Shown: one piece after another, positions 1 through 8,852 of the stretch | How positions within the stretch are numbered: position 1 is the stretch's first letter | How the letters are laid out: each line of letters opens with the position of its first letter | Origin: an uncultured Neomegalonema sp. | GTDB taxonomy: Bacteria > Pseudomonadota > Alphaproteobacteria > Rhodobacterales > Rhodobacteraceae | Length of the DNA stretch: 40,245 bases | Direction of reading: 5' to 3' | Assembly (NCBI GenBank): GCA_938034615.1 | Contig: CALHLW010000034.1 | Span: forward strand, 1-40,245 | Translations under genes and position numbers: made by a program | The notes under the pieces: generated by a model | Told to the model about the DNA's origin: nothing | Seen by the model: only the letters and a program-made list of their open reading frames with translations | Databases searched by the model: none

Positions 1-1512
1 ACTACCGTAGCGCAGGATCGACAACGCGAAGCCGTCCTCACCGCAGAATGGGTCGGCCTCGGGTGCCCCCCATCGCTCCTCGATCTTCACGCGCATGTCC
101 CATGGCAGGGCGGCATAGAAGTCGCGGTACGCATCGAGCGAAAGCCGCTCACCCCCGCCCCGCCCCGCACGATCCGCCAGCCAGTTCGTCGGCCCTGCCT
201 GTATCGCCTCCATCAACTCTGCCGGATCGTAGGGCGCACTCTTCATCGCGTATCCCGATGCCGCCAATATGCCGAGCATGTCCACGCAGCTTTGCGGCGT
301 ATCCAGCCCCACGCCGTTCGCCAGCCGCCCGTCCTTGTTCGGATAATTGGCAAGGATGATGCCGACGCGCTTCTCCGCATTCGTTTTGCCTCCGAGTCGC
401 GCCCAATTTGCGGCCAGCTTCGCCGTCCAAGCCACCCGGTCGCCGACCGCGCGATAAGCCGCAATCCGACATTCCGTCGCTTCGTCGAAATACGCCTCGC
501 CCTTGAAGCTGACCGCGCGGGTCAGAACGCGCCCGTCCACCTCTGGCAAGGCGACATTCATCGCGATATCCCGAGCGCCAAGACCGTTCAGCCCGGTCGT
601 CCAAGCCTCCTCCGTGCCGCCGGAGAAGATCACCTGCAACACAGGCACCCCCGGCGCATCGAGGGGGGTCGGTTCATGCGTTGCATTCTGGGGGGACGAG
701 ACAGCAAAACCCGTTGCATTCAGGACGACGGCGGGCGGTGACTGCTCGAAAAGGATCGCGAGCGTCGCCGCCGACACGGGATCTTTCAACGAGGCGACAA
801 AAACCGGCAGCGGGTTCATCCCCTCCTGGATCAACGCGCGCACCAGCCGGTTCACCGGGTTCAGCCCTGCGCCTTGCAAGAGCGCCCGGTAGAAGACGAT
901 CGGCACGACCGACGCGCCTTCGGTCCAAGCCTCTTGCGCTGCATCGAGCGAGGCAATCCCGGCTCCCGGCCAGTATACTCCAGCACGAAGCAAAGGTCTC
1001 GCCGGATCGGGCCGCTTATCGTCTCCCCGCGCCATCGCCCCAGCCAAACGCAGCAGGTTCGTGGCATTCTCCGGCCCGCCCTCAACGCAATAGGCCCAGA
1101 GCGCGTGCCAATCATCTTCGGAAACCGTGGACGCGCGGCGCAATGCTTCGTCCGGCTTGTCGTCACCGGGCAAAGCCGCAAACGCGACTCCGGCTTCGTT
1201 CAGACGGGCGGCAAATTGTTCGAGACCGTAGGACCAATAACCCTCACCGCCCAAGACCCGCGCAATGACCAGTTTCGCCTTCGTCGCGGTCTGGTCGAGA
1301 TAGAGATCGACCGACATGGGATGCGCTAGATGCAGCAAGGAAGCAAGGCGCAGGCTAGGAGCCTCATCCCCCAACGACCCGCGCGCTTCGGACAGCGCGG
1401 CCAGCTCGGTATCGGCGGCAGAGATAATGATGATATCGGCGGGGGTCTGGCCGAGATCGACGGCATCAGAGCCGTCTGAAATCTCCCCCGGTTGCGCGAG
1501 GAGAAGATGCAT
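1..1512 (-). CDS. cobN: Cobaltochelatase subunit CobN, N-terminal part (truncated by window edge)
   Basis: CobN is the large subunit of the ATP-dependent aerobic cobaltochelatase (with CobS and CobT), which inserts cobalt into hydrogenobyrinic acid a,c-diamide in the cytoplasm. The frame is open from an ATG at 1512 to the left edge, 504 codons of a protein usually near 1,250 residues, so the ORF track shows only out-of-frame fragments here. The N-terminus MHLLLAQPGEISDGSDAVDL is characteristic of CobN, as is the later NYPNKDGRLANGVGLDTP stretch. The start lies two bases after the stop of the upstream small gene, so it is the last visible gene of the hupE-bluB-cobW operon. No frameshift was seen in the visible part. 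CobS and CobT are not in this window. Confidence 0.95.
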   Translation of the reverse strand, partial: MHLLLAQPGEISDGSDAVDLGQTPADIIIISAADTELAALSEARGSLGDEAPSLRLASLLHLAHPMSVDLYLDQTATKAKLVIARVLGGEGYWSYGLEQFAARLNEAGVAFAALPGDDKPDEALRRASTVSEDDWHALWAYCVEGGPENATNLLRLAGAMARGDDKRPDPARPLLRAGVYWPGAGIASLDAAQEAWTEGASVVPIVFYRALLQGAGLNPVNRLVRALIQEGMNPLPVFVASLKDPVSAATLAILFEQSPPAVVLNATGFAVSSPQNATHEPTPLDAPGVPVLQVIFSGGTEEAWTTGLNGLGARDIAMNVALPEVDGRVLTRAVSFKGEAYFDEATECRIAAYRAVGDRVAWTAKLAANWARLGGKTNAEKRVGIILANYPNKDGRLANGVGLDTPQSCVDMLGILAASGYAMKSAPYDPAELMEAIQAGPTNWLADRAGRGGGERLSLDAYRDFYAALPWDMRVKIEERWGAPEADPFCGEDGFALSILRYGS

Positions 1513-1514
1513 CC

Positions 1515-1937
1515 TTATTGTCCGAGCCAGAGAACCGGCATCACGCTCGACCGTTCGCCGCAGTTCTTCGTCACCGTGGCGAGCACAGGAGACATGGTCG
1601 CGTCCTCTCCCGCATGGATCGCGTCGAGATAGGCGACGACGCCCGCAACCTTCTCTTCCGGCGTATCGCCCTTGCTCATAGGCGAGACGCCAATGACGTG
1701 CAGGAAGCAGGGGCACACCCGGATCGCCTTTTGCCGCCCGCCTTCGGCAAGCTGATCGTCGCTCATCGTGGCGGCGAAATCAGGCGCTCGGTCCTTCAAC
1801 AGCGCCACCCGCGATTCAGTCACGTCAGCAAGGCAGCGCTTCATGAACGCGGTTCCAGCCTCGGAAACCGGCCCTTCCGCGTCCTCAGCGAACGCAGGAA
1901 ACGTGACCATTACGAGCAGCGCAGCAAGGCGGATCAT
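1515..1937 (-). CDS. Small secreted cysteine-containing protein in the B12 operon, function unknown
   Basis: This 140-residue protein was not assigned to a named family. An N-terminal signal peptide (MIRLAALLVMVTFPAFA, predicted cleavage after residue 17) points to the periplasm. The mature part has four cysteines, C35, a C75-P-C77 pair and C126, and no transmembrane segment. It lies between cobW and cobN; its ATG overlaps the cobW stop (ATGA at 1937-1934) and its TAA is two bases from the cobN ATG, so translation is probably coupled to B12 synthesis genes. That context suggests a role in periplasmic cobalt handling or redox, but this is inference only. The reading frame and operon placement are firm; the function is not known to me. 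Confidence 0.8.
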   Translation of the reverse strand: MIRLAALLVMVTFPAFAEDAEGPVSEAGTAFMKRCLADVTESRVALLKDRAPDFAATMSDDQLAEGGRQKAIRVCPCFLHVIGVSPMSKGDTPEEKVAGVVAYLDAIHAGEDATMSPVLATVTKNCGERSSVMPVLWLGQ

Positions 1938-2995
1938 ACCGCCAGTTCCTCGCGAATACCGGGCTCATCCAGACCGTGCATCCCGATGACCACCAGCGCG
2001 CTTTGCCGGGGCGTGGCTCCGAATGGTCGGTCGAAATAGGTTTCAATGCGCGGGCCAACGGCCTGAAGCACCATCCGCATCGGCTTGCCTTCGATGGCAA
2101 GGAAGCCTTTTACGCGCAGGACGTCATGCTTGCGGATCGTGGCTTCCACTTTCGCGCGGAACACCTCGACATCGGCAATCTCACCGAAGGTCATGGCAAA
2201 GCTGTCGAACTCGTCATGGCCATGATGATGCTCGTCATCGTGATGGTCGTCGTCATCATGATCGTGGTGGTGATGGTGGATTTCGTGGCGTGCGGCCACG
2301 TCGTCCTCCGCTCCGGCATCGAGACCGAGCAACACGGCAGGGGCCAGCCCATCGATCCCCGAGCGCACCAACCGTACACCATCACGGGTGCGCCCGCCGA
2401 GCGTGGTCACGGTCTCGTCGGCACGGCCCGCCTCCATCGCATCGGTCTTCGAGACGACGACGATATCGGCGCAGGCAAGCTGATCCTCGAAGAGTTCGGA
2501 AAGCGGTGTTTCGTGATCGATGCTCTCATCGGCTTCGCGTTGCGCTGCGACCTTGGCTTCGTCATGGGCAAAGCGACCATCGGCCAGTGCGGGGCCGTCC
2601 ACGACCGTCACCACGCCGTCGATGGTCGTCCGGGTACGGATTTCCGGCCAGTTGAAGGCGCGCACGAGTGGCTGCGGCAGGGCGAGGCCGCTGGTTTCGA
2701 TCACGATATGGTCGGGAGGATTTTCGCGCCCGAGCAACTTTTCGATGGTAGGGATGAAATCGTCGGCCACCGTGCAACAAATGCAGCCGTTCGACAACTC
2801 GATCACATCGTCATCGGTGCAGTTCTCGATGCCGCAGCCTTTAAGAAGGTCGCCATCCACGCCGATATCACCGAATTCGTTGATGACGAGGGCGATGCGT
2901 TTACCGTTTGCCTGTTGCAGCATGTTGCGGATCAGGGTCGTCTTTCCGGCTCCGAGGAAGCCGGTGATGACGGTCGCAGGAATTTTCTGGGCCAT
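1934..2995 (-). CDS. cobW: CobW family GTPase, metal-handling protein of B12 synthesis
   Basis: CobW belongs to the G3E (COG0523) GTPases, thought to deliver cobalt for cobalamin synthesis. Seen here: Walker A GFLGAGKTT (residues 12-20), the CICC metal-binding motif (71-74), a VSKTDA base-recognition motif near 182, and a His/Asp-rich tract at about 237-260 between the GTPase and C-terminal CobW domains. The ORF track runs to 3478, but the family start is MAQKIPATVITGF at 2995, giving 353 residues, close to the family norm; the longer N-terminus overlaps bluB and is not homologous-looking. bluB ends eight bases upstream, and the stop overlaps the next gene by ATGA. The His tract probably buffers or binds divalent metal. 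Confidence 0.93.
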   Translation of the reverse strand: MAQKIPATVITGFLGAGKTTLIRNMLQQANGKRIALVINEFGDIGVDGDLLKGCGIENCTDDDVIELSNGCICCTVADDFIPTIEKLLGRENPPDHIVIETSGLALPQPLVRAFNWPEIRTRTTIDGVVTVVDGPALADGRFAHDEAKVAAQREADESIDHETPLSELFEDQLACADIVVVSKTDAMEAGRADETVTTLGGRTRDGVRLVRSGIDGLAPAVLLGLDAGAEDDVAARHEIHHHHHDHDDDDHHDDEHHHGHDEFDSFAMTFGEIADVEVFRAKVEATIRKHDVLRVKGFLAIEGKPMRMVLQAVGPRIETYFDRPFGATPRQSALVVIGMHGLDEPGIREELAV

Positions 2996-3003
2996 TGGGC
3001 TCG

Positions 3004-3672
3004 CTATCTGTGCAGCACGCGGTCGGGAAGGCTCTGGCGGTCCTGCCATCCGGCGCGCGCGAGTTCGGGGTCGATATGCTCCTCGACCGGATAGCCGAGG
3101 CAGAGATAAGCCACCAGCGACCAATCGTTGGACACGGCAAGGTCGCGGGCAATGCGGTTCGGATCGAGGATGGAGACCCAACCGATGCCAAGCCCCCGCG
3201 CCCGCGCCGCCAGCCACATCTGCATCACGGCGCAAACGACCGAGTAACGACGCATTTCCGGCATTGTGCCGACGCCGAGGCCGCTGCCCTGCTGGGTTGC
3301 TTCGTCGCAGAACACCGCTAGCTGGATCGGGGCATCGCGTAACCCCGCCAGCTTGAGGCTGGCGTAATGCTCGCGTTTGTCCCGGCGTTGTGCAGCGAGG
3401 GCAAGCGCGTTCGCGTCTTCGAAATTGGCCACCACCGCCTTGCGGGCAGCCACCGATCCCACGCGCACGAAACGCCATGGCTCGGACAAACCGACCGAGG
3501 GGGCGGATGCCGCCGCGCGGATCACCTGCGCGACGAGACGCTCAGGCACCTTCGTCGTCTCGAAGCGGCGAACGTCACGCCGCCACTGGAACAGAACTTC
3601 CAACTCCCGCCGGAAAGCAGGCGAGAAGACAGGCGAGTCCGCATCGGTTTGAGCGAAGGCGCTCGCGATCAC
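3004..3672 (-). CDS. bluB: 5,6-dimethylbenzimidazole synthase BluB
   Basis: BluB uses oxygen to cleave reduced FMN and form 5,6-dimethylbenzimidazole, the lower ligand of B12. The nitroreductase-fold signatures are visible: QWRRDVRRF near residues 29-37 (with the conserved aspartate), an APSVGLSEPWRF flavin-binding stretch near 55-66, and GIGWVSILDP towards the C-terminus. The ORF track starts at 3819, inside hupE. I prefer a GTG at 3672, four bases after the hupE stop, giving 222 residues, which matches the family length; no strong Shine-Dalgarno is seen, consistent with coupled translation. The position between a riboswitch-controlled transporter and cobW supports BluB over a generic nitroreductase. 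Confidence 0.92.
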   Translation of the reverse strand: MIASAFAQTDADSPVFSPAFRRELEVLFQWRRDVRRFETTKVPERLVAQVIRAAASAPSVGLSEPWRFVRVGSVAARKAVVANFEDANALALAAQRRDKREHYASLKLAGLRDAPIQLAVFCDEATQQGSGLGVGTMPEMRRYSVVCAVMQMWLAARARGLGIGWVSILDPNRIARDLAVSNDWSLVAYLCLGYPVEEHIDPELARAGWQDRQSLPDRVLHR

Positions 3673-3676
3673 CGGA

Positions 3677-4309
3677 TCAGCCGAGGCCGAGCGCGGCGAA
3701 CGCCATGCCCTCGATGTTCTCCAGCAGGAAGGTCGCGCCGACACCGGCAACGACCGCACCGGCAAGGCGTGGACGCAAACCATCGGTCGAGGCAAGCAGT
3801 TTACCGGCAAGATAGGCAATGGCGTATTGTGTCATCGCGAGGCCGAGCAGGTATCCGACGAACACCATGCTCCCTGCACCCCCCTCCTGAGCGGCAAGAA
3901 CGCCGCCGAAAGCCCAGCCATGGAATAGGCCAGCCGCCGCAAACAGCGACAGCACAACTGGGCTGGTCAGGCGCGTACCGGAGGCAACCAGACCGCCGAG
4001 GACGATCAAAGATGCGGCAATGACGAGTTCAACTGCAGGCAACGCGATGCCGCTCACGACAAGGGCGATCCCGCCCATCATACCGGCGATATAGCCGAAG
4101 GGCGCGGTCGAAAGACGCCCGATCATCGCGGCGGCGAGGCCGACGGCAACGACGAAGAAGAAGTGATCGAATCCGAGCAGCGGATGCCCGATACCCGAGA
4201 GAACGCCGTGACTGAACGTCTCCATCGGCGCGCCCGCAAGCGGGTGGTGCGCCAGCGCGGGCGTCGCGATCAGGGCGGCGAGGGCCGAAAGGCCGGTAAT
4301 CTTTTTCAT
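3677..4309 (-). CDS. HupE/UreJ family transporter, probable B12-regulated cobalt importer
   Basis: HupE/UreJ proteins are small integral membrane carriers for nickel or cobalt. This one has an N-terminal signal-like segment ending in ATPALA, then the family motif GIGHPLLGFDHFFFVVAVGL and about six hydrophobic helices (210 residues). The track starts at 4321, but the ATG at 4309 is preferred because GGAG lies six bases upstream and the product then begins MKKITGLSALAAL. It is the first gene after a cobalamin riboswitch and is followed by bluB, cobW and cobN, so cobalt is the likely substrate. Metal specificity is inferred from context, not from the sequence. Confidence 0.88.
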   Translation of the reverse strand: MKKITGLSALAALIATPALAHHPLAGAPMETFSHGVLSGIGHPLLGFDHFFFVVAVGLAAAMIGRLSTAPFGYIAGMMGGIALVVSGIALPAVELVIAASLIVLGGLVASGTRLTSPVVLSLFAAAGLFHGWAFGGVLAAQEGGAGSMVFVGYLLGLAMTQYAIAYLAGKLLASTDGLRPRLAGAVVAGVGATFLLENIEGMAFAALGLG

Positions 4310-4314
4310 GTCAG

Positions 4315-4339
4315 TCTCCATTCCCGTCCCTCCGACGGG
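4315..4339 (-). promoter_or_regulatory. Hairpin and ribosome binding site between the riboswitch and hupE
   Basis: Read on the minus strand, CCCGTC-GGAGG-GACGGG forms a perfect six-base stem with a GGAGG loop (4339-4323). It lies between the aptamer and the hupE ribosome binding site (GGAG, 4320-4317). There is no U-run, so control of translation rather than termination is more likely. The hairpin could be the regulatory helix that docks onto the aptamer; that is inference. Confidence 0.45.
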
Positions 4340-6386: not shown

Positions 6387-7292
6387 TCAGACCGAAATCT
6401 CCATCCCGTCGAACGCGACTTCCCATCCGGCTTCCTGCACCTCTTCGCGTTCGGCGCTGTCGGGCAGGAGGAGCGGATTGGTGTTGTTCAGATGCACGAG
6501 GACGCGGCGGGCGATATTTGTTTCCGCGAAAACCGCCATGGTCCCATCACCGCCCGAAACCGACATATGCCCCATCCGCGCGCCGGTCTTCTGGCCCACA
6601 CCTTCGCGCTGCATTTCGTCATCGCTCCAGAGCGTGCCATCGAACATGAGCAGATCGGCTCCGTCGATGCGCGCTTTCAGGTCATCCGGCACAGCGGCGC
6701 AGCCGGGAATATACATCGCGCGCTTGCCGTCGCCCGTAATCTCGGCCCCGACCGTTTGCTCACCAACGAGCTGCGTCTCGACTGTCTCCCCCTCCATGTA
6801 GAGCGGCACTTTTCCCGGCACGGCGAAGAGGCGCACGGTGATGCCCGGCACGGGCTCGAACGACGCATCGAGGGCGATCCGCTCCCTAACCACGAAAGCG
6901 GGATCGAGGGCGGCGAAGACCGGGTTGGCATCGAGCACGTTCGCAATCTCGCCCGTCATGTAGAGACCGAGCGGATGCTTCTCGCGCAGGGACAGCAGGC
7001 CCGCCACATGGTCGAGGTCGCCATTGGTGAGGATGACCGACGAGATCGGGCTGTCGCGCAGGCCCCTCTCCGGGCGGGGATGCATCTGCTTGTGGGCAAT
7101 GATCTGCTCGCGCAGGTCGGGTGAAGCGTTGAAGACTGCCCATTGCTCGCCATCCGCACTGACCGCGATGGAGGATTGCGTGCGCGCTGTGACACCCGGT
7201 TCCCCGCGCCAGAAAGCGGCGCAGGTGGAACACGCGCAGTTCCATTGCGGAAACCCACCGCCCGCAGCGGCACCGAGAATGAGGATGTGCAT
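6387..7292 (-). CDS. pqqB: PqqB, pyrroloquinoline quinone biosynthesis protein
   Basis: PqqB is a metallo-beta-lactamase-fold enzyme of PQQ synthesis, reported to act as an iron-dependent hydroxylase on the peptide-derived intermediate. The start MHILILGAAAGGGFPQWNC is diagnostic, followed by the CxCxxC set (NCACSTC, about residues 19-25), a SSVILTNGDLDHVAGLL metal-binding stretch near 90-105, and GHMSVSGGDG near 250. The track begins at 7331 but the family start is ATG 7292, giving 301 residues. No pqqA, C, D or E is visible nearby; instead it leads into cbiD-cobK on the same strand. The family call is firm, but whether it serves PQQ here is open. Confidence 0.9.
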   Translation of the reverse strand: MHILILGAAAGGGFPQWNCACSTCAAFWRGEPGVTARTQSSIAVSADGEQWAVFNASPDLREQIIAHKQMHPRPERGLRDSPISSVILTNGDLDHVAGLLSLREKHPLGLYMTGEIANVLDANPVFAALDPAFVVRERIALDASFEPVPGITVRLFAVPGKVPLYMEGETVETQLVGEQTVGAEITGDGKRAMYIPGCAAVPDDLKARIDGADLLMFDGTLWSDDEMQREGVGQKTGARMGHMSVSGGDGTMAVFAETNIARRVLVHLNNTNPLLLPDSAEREEVQEAGWEVAFDGMEISV

Positions 7293-7368
7293 GTCAGCGC
7301 CCCGGAATTGCTCGTTTGTCTTTGAAGGCATCTACCACGTCGGTTCCCATCTCACCAGAATGCCGCGA

Positions 7369-8235
7369 CTATAAGGCATCGCGCAGGATCGGGCGGGTCA
7401 GGCAGGTCGGGCCGCCCTCGCAGCCGATACAGAGCGCATCGCCGGAGAATACGGCAACATCGATCCCCGCATCCTCCAGCACGGCGCGGGTCTTGGGGAT
7501 GCCGTCCACCATTACGCAGCGACCGGGGGCGAGGGCAAGGATGTTGGTGCTGAGCGTGCCGCTTGTCTGAAACTCGTCATAGGGCGCGGCGAGCAGGGTA
7601 TAGCCCAGCGCCTCCATCCGCTGTCGCAGCGCAACCGGCAGCAGCGGCTCGCAGACGAGGGCCGTGCGCGTATCGACGAGGCTGACGAGCGACATAAGGT
7701 GCAGGCACGCGGCCTCTCCCATGTAGCAGGGCAGATCGAAGGCTTCGACGCCGATGCCCTGCGCCGCCAGGATGGCGGTCAGTTGGGCGATGCCCTTAGC
7801 ATTGGTCCGATAGCCGCGTCCGGCTGCCAGAAGATCGGGCGCGAGCCAGAGGGTATCGCCCGCTTCCATGCGGGCCGTGCCTTCGATGCTGCCGATCACG
7901 GGGATACCGTGGGTCTCGTAGAAAGCGGCGTGCAGCGCTTCCTCGCCCCGGCGCAGGGCCTTGCCGGGTGACATGAGGACGGCCCCGGTTGGGGTCATCA
8001 GCGAAGCGTCATAGGTGAAGACGGCATCGGCGATATCCGTGTTGCCGTCGATCCAGAGGATGTGGATGCCCTCGGCTTCCAGCAGCCGCACGAAGGCGGC
8101 GTGATCGGCCTCGGCCTTTTCGAAATCGAAGGTCGGGCCATAGTGCCAGCGGGTCGGATCGGCATCTCGCAGATCAGGACGGCGCAGGGCAACACGGCGC
8201 AGCGGCGCAGTCATCGAGGCAACGCCGAAATTCAT
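7369..8235 (-). CDS. Amidinotransferase-fold hydrolase (dimethylarginine dimethylaminohydrolase-like)
   Basis: Members of this guanidino-group-modifying superfamily hydrolyse arginine or methylated arginines to citrulline with a Cys-His-acid centre. Here the candidate catalytic residues are the acid in ARMEAGDTLW (near residue 121), the histidine in ACLHLMSL (near 177) and the cysteine in GGPTCLTRP (near 279); an early DGNTDIADAVFTYD substrate-binding stretch is also present. The length of 288 is in the DDAH/arginine deiminase range. The first visible start at 8235 overlaps the preceding gene stop (ATGA); MTAPLRRVALRRP, seven codons in, is an alternative. The true substrate could be arginine, dimethylarginine or another guanidino compound. 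Confidence 0.82.
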   Translation of the reverse strand: MNFGVASMTAPLRRVALRRPDLRDADPTRWHYGPTFDFEKAEADHAAFVRLLEAEGIHILWIDGNTDIADAVFTYDASLMTPTGAVLMSPGKALRRGEEALHAAFYETHGIPVIGSIEGTARMEAGDTLWLAPDLLAAGRGYRTNAKGIAQLTAILAAQGIGVEAFDLPCYMGEAACLHLMSLVSLVDTRTALVCEPLLPVALRQRMEALGYTLLAAPYDEFQTSGTLSTNILALAPGRCVMVDGIPKTRAVLEDAGIDVAVFSGDALCIGCEGGPTCLTRPILRDAL

Positions 8236-8852
8236 TCGTTCCCCTGCACACGCTCCAGATGCGGCGCGTCGGCAGTCATCAGCGCAAGCGCATCCTCCGT
8301 CGTGATCGCCGTGCAGAACTCACCGTTCATACTCGCGACCGACAGGGCGTGCACGACCTCCGGGTCGTAATCCGTACCGTCGATGCCGATGCGGTTCATG
8401 GTCGAGCAGGCGTCATGCACGAGATAGGTGTCGAACCCCATATTCCCGGCCATCCGCACGGTCGTCTCAACGCAAACATTGGTGAAGAACCCGGCGACCA
8501 CAAGCCGATGGATGCGGGCACGGCGCAGGTCCAGTTCCAGCGACGTGCCGACAAAGCCGCTATTGGCACTCTTCGAGACGCTGATATCGCCCGGTGCGAT
8601 CTCCATGCCATCGAGTTGCTGGCCTGTCTCCAGCGAGAGTTTCAGCGGCGATTGCGCCTCCACGGAGTCGTGCCGCGTGAAGGCGATCCGACCCCCCTGC
8701 CCCCGCCACGCAGTCAAAAGACTGCGAATACGGTCCTTTGCTTCGGGGTTGTTCGCGCGTCCGGTCGGACCGGCATAATAGGCGAGATCATCCACCCCCT
8801 TCTGCACGTCGATCAACAGCAGAGCGGTATGGGCGTCGAAGCGGGAGATCAT
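8232..8852 (-). CDS. Isochorismatase-family cysteine hydrolase
   Basis: This family includes nicotinamidase, N-carbamoylsarcosine amidase, biuret hydrolase and ureidoacrylate amidase. The Asp-Lys-Cys triad is visible: LLLIDVQKG (Asp near residue 14), SVSKSANSGFVGT (Lys near 93) and FFTNVCVETTVRMAG (Cys near 127). It has 206 residues. A good GAGGAA ribosome site sits six bases before the ATG. It overlaps the DDAH-like gene by ATGA and starts ten bases after the phosphoesterase stop. Fold and triad are clear, but the substrate cannot be read from the sequence; an amide or ureido compound is plausible from the neighbours. Confidence 0.85.
   Translation of the reverse strand: MISRFDAHTALLLIDVQKGVDDLAYYAGPTGRANNPEAKDRIRSLLTAWRGQGGRIAFTRHDSVEAQSPLKLSLETGQQLDGMEIAPGDISVSKSANSGFVGTSLELDLRRARIHRLVVAGFFTNVCVETTVRMAGNMGFDTYLVHDACSTMNRIGIDGTDYDPEVVHALSVASMNGEFCTAITTEDALALMTADAPHLERVQGNE

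Follow-up and report, generated by a model that had tools for sequence, protein, structure and literature searches.

A predicted exported four-cysteine protein encoded between cobW and cobN in a B12-riboswitch operon of uncultured Neomegalonema-like bacteria

The window that we analysed, a 40,245-nucleotide stretch of DNA from an uncultured Neomegalonema sp., contains a small gene between cobW and cobN, here called X, which is a genuine protein-coding gene under constraint and a member of a cobalamin-riboswitch operon. In the searches run, X appears restricted to a single genus of uncultured Neomegalonema-like bacteria. Its product is predicted to act in the periplasm, and we tentatively propose that it aids the supply of cobalt.

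The operon and the constraint on X

The genes hupE, bluB, cobW, X and cobN follow one another on the minus strand, a point that the initial annotation had left out, with a cobalamin riboswitch at the head (Table 1). This class of riboswitch represses at high adenosylcobalamin. X translates to an open reading frame with a single terminal stop, and its C-P-C pair sits in the motif VCPCF. The start of X (1937) overlaps the end of cobW (1934) by 4 bases, and 2 bases separate its end (1515) from the cobN ATG (1512). The protein that the initial annotation had described, with 140 residues, four cysteines, a C-P-C pair and a signal-peptide-like start, agrees with this translation; the overlap, the gap and the upstream riboswitch were all reproduced, as was the statement that the rest of the operon consists of known B12 or cobalt genes. 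Among these, the nitroreductase-family gene is one that we take to be bluB, from its sequence and context; it occupies the same place in relatives.

Table 1 Features of the operon, in window coordinates
Feature	Position	Strand	Evidence and remarks
Cobalamin riboswitch RF00174	4343-4577	-	100.7 bits, E 3.3e-24
hupE, HupE/UreJ-type cobalt importer	3677..4321	-	Pfam HupE_UreJ; HPLLGFDH motif (PMC7689651)
bluB, probable 5,6-dimethylbenzimidazole synthase	3004..3672	-	Pfam Nitroreductase; start approximate, open frame to 3819
cobW, Co(II)-chaperone GTPase	1934..2995	-	Pfam cobW and CobW_C; TIGR02475 above cut-off
X, 140-aa protein	1515..1937	-	Signal-peptide-like N-terminus; cysteines C35, C75-P-C77, C126
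cobN, cobaltochelatase large subunit	1..1512	-	Pfam CobN-Mg_chel; first 504 residues, runs off contig

A riboswitch followed, on a single strand, by a cobalt importer, cobW and cobN places the operon in the B12-riboswitch cobalt-uptake and cobaltochelatase type. The cobN gene continues on contig C184, and the operon probably ends with it, because the next gene there, which resembles SecD/SecF by eye, lies on the opposite strand. HupE has been demonstrated to import cobalt in Synechocystis, and CobW serves as the cobalt chaperone for CobNST, with a metal site formed by a CxCC thiol motif (PMC7689651). The CobW of the window also has a histidine- and aspartate-rich stretch, HEIHHHHHDHDDDDHHDDEHHHGHDE, before its C-terminal domain; according to the literature, this stretch may have a part in metal hand-over.

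The genus was sampled with 14 genomes, most of them draft assemblies, and 11 of these carry cobW above the family cut-off. Intact X occurs in nine of the 11, the copy in the window included, and the other eight sequences are 44–76% identical to the window protein. The initial annotation had considered that homologues might lie mostly outside cobalt or B12 loci, or that the cysteines might not be conserved. Instead, every copy of X that was found lies in the order cobW–X–cobN, behind a B12 riboswitch wherever the flank is long enough; the riboswitch stands upstream of the operon in all nine congeners in which a long upstream region was scanned. In the alignment of the nine intact sequences C35, C75, P76, C77 and C126 are invariant. 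The 4-base overlap with cobW is kept in all copies, even in one that is internally deleted, which points to coupled translation.

X is under purifying selection. Pairwise dN/dS is about 0.05–0.23 where computable, values that are rough owing to synonymous sites near saturation in many pairs, and differences by codon position (1536, 1210 and 3037) are dominated by the third position, as they are in cobW. That X has no homologue outside its genus might suggest a chance open reading frame, but these substitution patterns, the conserved overlap and the invariant residues all argue against such an origin; the selection test rules it out, and we give it practically no weight.

Two members of the genus depart from this pattern. 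In G007, X is reduced to 83 amino acids by an in-frame internal deletion that includes the CPC core (L010:1498-1749, minus strand), possibly a metagenome assembly error. In G002, cobW and cobN are separated by a gap of ~300 bases without X; this non-homologous stretch (L024:2571-2866) holds only an unrelated antisense frame of 79 amino acids with no Pfam match. Neither cobW, cobN nor X was found in G008 or G009, and G011 yields fragments that lie at the ends of contigs. The HupE branch of G002 looked long in a tree, as co-evolution of HupE with X might produce, but relative-rate tests for a change in HupE where X is lost were not significant, and we dropped this idea.

Distribution of X and occupancy of the cobW–cobN slot

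A profile built from the nine sequences gave no match outside the genus at E 0.001 in 298 genomes that represent 297 genera of the family. At looser settings, 395 genomes from the order, 385 from the class and 379 from the phylum returned no convincing homologue; these searches score the top candidates of an initial screen, and very distant relatives could escape them. The strongest outside matches, ahead of a tail of weaker ones at E 0.01 to 1, were inspected individually and have the character of chance hits: antisense frames, frames with internal stops or similarity confined to the signal peptide. No convincing viral or plasmid copies were found. X has no match in Pfam, in NCBIfam, among PDB sequences or among PDB folds, and our literature search found no paper on any small exported protein encoded in the cobW–cobN interval. 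The protein is thus undescribed, as the initial annotation had supposed. It is not a component shared across alphaproteobacteria: on the profile searches at the family, order, class and phylum levels we reject a general alphaproteobacterial family and place X in its own genus only, among the genomes searched.

Other genera have something else, or nothing, at the same position. X is absent from all 29 cobW–cobN operons of other genera of the family; cobN begins within 79 bases of cobW in 20 of them, and a gene for a GNAT acetyltransferase lies between the two in nine. The GNAT-type operons carry a cobalamin riboswitch, and several include a CbtB and CbtA importer (one CbtA and one CbtB were confirmed with Pfam; the others were read by eye). 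Seven further genera have the arrangement riboswitch–hupE–cobW–cobN, all without X, six with GNAT in the slot and one with the slot empty. X is not a fixed component of B12-riboswitch cobalt-uptake and cobaltochelatase operons across genera. The cobW–cobN position accepts other genes, because sister lineages have GNAT there, and HupE in general needs no X-like partner, because these seven hupE operons are without one.

Compared with the riboswitch operons of the family (CbtAB or HupE, CobW, optional GNAT, CobN), the operon of the window and its congeners shares the riboswitch, cobW and cobN, but bluB follows hupE and X takes the place of GNAT, to which it is unrelated in sequence. Among the operons compared, bluB stands beside hupE only in this genus. 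Altogether, 15 operons of other genera have GNAT in the cobW–cobN slot (L085-L093, L154-L159), and a role for it in B12 synthesis is not obvious. Relocation of the GNAT gene elsewhere in the genus of the window was considered and not supported: the only GNATs found there are 38–43% identical and not clearly the same gene. In another genus, a B12-riboswitch operon encodes a secreted, histidine-rich protein of 151 amino acids between cbtA and cobW (L092:1027-1485, plus strand); it has no Pfam match and is possibly a periplasmic metal-handling protein.

Predicted export, fold and disulfides

All nine orthologues (9/9) have the features of Sec export when read by eye: a basic n-region, a hydrophobic core and an A-x-A cleavage site. 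The predicted location of X in the periplasm rests on this N-terminus. AlphaFold2, run with the nine-sequence alignment, returns an all-helical model, confident for the mature protein (pLDDT 88.8 and pTM 0.81; pLDDT 83.4 with the signal peptide), with helices at 26–50 and 60–84. From residue numbering, these two helices are expected to form an antiparallel hairpin that brings C35 and C75 level (35 + 75 = 50 + 60). C77, two helix residues past C75, would face elsewhere and so be well placed to bond with C126. We therefore infer that X probably has two disulfides, C35–C75 across the first hairpin and C77–C126 tying down the C-terminal tail. When an exported protein conserves four cysteines, these are usually oxidised. 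Among the metal ligands suited to an oxidising compartment (His, Met, Asp, Glu), a few aspartates and glutamates are invariant besides the four cysteines; no histidine is, nor any methionine beyond the start.

Fold searches with the full-length and mature models against the PDB, and against a viral library, gave no match with E below 0.8. The cysteine pattern had raised the suspicion of kinship with Rap1a/Tai (PF18602), which are likewise small, exported, helical proteins with four invariant cysteines, but this was rejected, with a profile–profile probability of 0.9% and no hmmscan match. The spacing also differs: in Rap1a/Tai proteins the first half contains two cysteines, a third precedes helix 3 and the last is at the C terminus, whereas X (C35, C75, C77 and C126) has none before helix 3. 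CbtAB to CbtG and CbtX are listed as predicted cobalt transporters (PMC2667541), and like X they are encoded in B12-linked loci. In contrast to CbtA to CbtG and CbtX, X is predicted to be soluble once its signal is removed, and it has no match to Pfam or NCBIfam families, CbtA and CbtB included.

Possible roles of X

We favour the reading that X is a genus-specific exported protein that aids cobalt supply as an accessory of the operon, while putting its chances somewhat short of even. It is suggested by the co-regulation of X with HupE, CobW and CobN. The fixed cobW–X–cobN order with its overlap, purifying selection, the invariant cysteines and the joint absence of cobW, cobN and X from G008 and G009 also speak for it. 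X would have arisen, or been captured, in one genus and would be translated within the B12-repressed operon, exported through the Sec route and trimmed at the A-x-A site; once in the periplasm it would fold into a small, all-helical protein, probably with two disulfides. When adenosylcobalamin is low, X would be made together with the HupE importer and the CobW and CobN cobalt-insertion machinery, and would assist cobalt supply from the periplasmic side as a non-essential, lineage-specific aid. Against such an accessory stand the seven HupE operons of other genera, the absence of X from G002, the loss of the CPC core in G007, the lack of an invariant histidine, the non-significant rate tests on HupE and a slot that takes GNAT in sister lineages. 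Overall, the evidence weakens the proposal, made in the initial annotation, of a periplasmic cobalt-binding partner of HupE: operon context speaks for it, and HupE operons without X and the two losses speak against it, as does the missing histidine, which weakens a role as cobalt ligand.

A secreted, lineage-specific protein with a function unrelated to cobalt, in the envelope or otherwise, could have entered a tolerant cobW–cobN slot as a passenger and been kept there by expression of the operon, and we consider this possible, if less probable than the cobalt accessory. GNAT occupies the slot in nine genera and twenty others leave it empty, the operon persists without X in G002 and with an internally deleted X in G007, and seven HupE operons manage without it. 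Yet X was never found outside the operon, its 4-base overlap is kept across the genus, and control by a B12 riboswitch would be odd for an unrelated function. More ambitious, and in our view rather unlikely, is the idea that X is the founding member of a new B12-repressed periplasmic family with a new helical fold, which collects cobalt for HupE in one lineage, instead of or beside the role of the displaced GNAT.

The cysteines invite two further explanations. Four invariant cysteines, C-P-C among them, in an operon shared with a cobalt importer could belong to a periplasmic thiol chaperone that hands Co(II) to HupE, but the oxidation usual for such cysteines, the lack of an invariant histidine or internal methionine and the occurrence of HupE elsewhere without X make this improbable. 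Although CobW, from the same operon, does have a CxCC thiol site, for the periplasm methionine is noted as a better ligand than cysteine, and a Met-to-Cys change in CnrX, a cobalt sensor of that compartment, lowers Co(II) affinity about 2000-fold (PMC7689651). The C-P-C pair might also suggest a redox partner that sets the thiol state, reduced or oxidised, of HupE or some other protein of the envelope, as the initial annotation had offered for HupE; structurally this finds no support, and we regard it as very unlikely. In a thioredoxin fold, a C-x-x-C or C-x-C motif would lie in a loop and at the start of a helix; the model of X is all-helical rather than thioredoxin-like and has no PDB fold match, its C-P-C lies inside a helix, so that the two cysteines should face different sides, and the aligned HupE sequences have no conserved cysteine to act on.

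Periplasmic handling of cobalt before import is poorly known in Gram-negative bacteria, and an exported protein under B12 control, encoded among cobalt genes, would give a direct handle on this step. Restriction to a single genus and dispensability in two of its members narrow the scope of the finding and make a local accessory likelier than a missing general component.

Elsewhere in the window, genes of the arginine-deiminase and isochorismatase families overlap by four bases (7369-8852), and a PqqB-like gene with a metallo-beta-lactamase fold (6387-7331) adjoins this pair.
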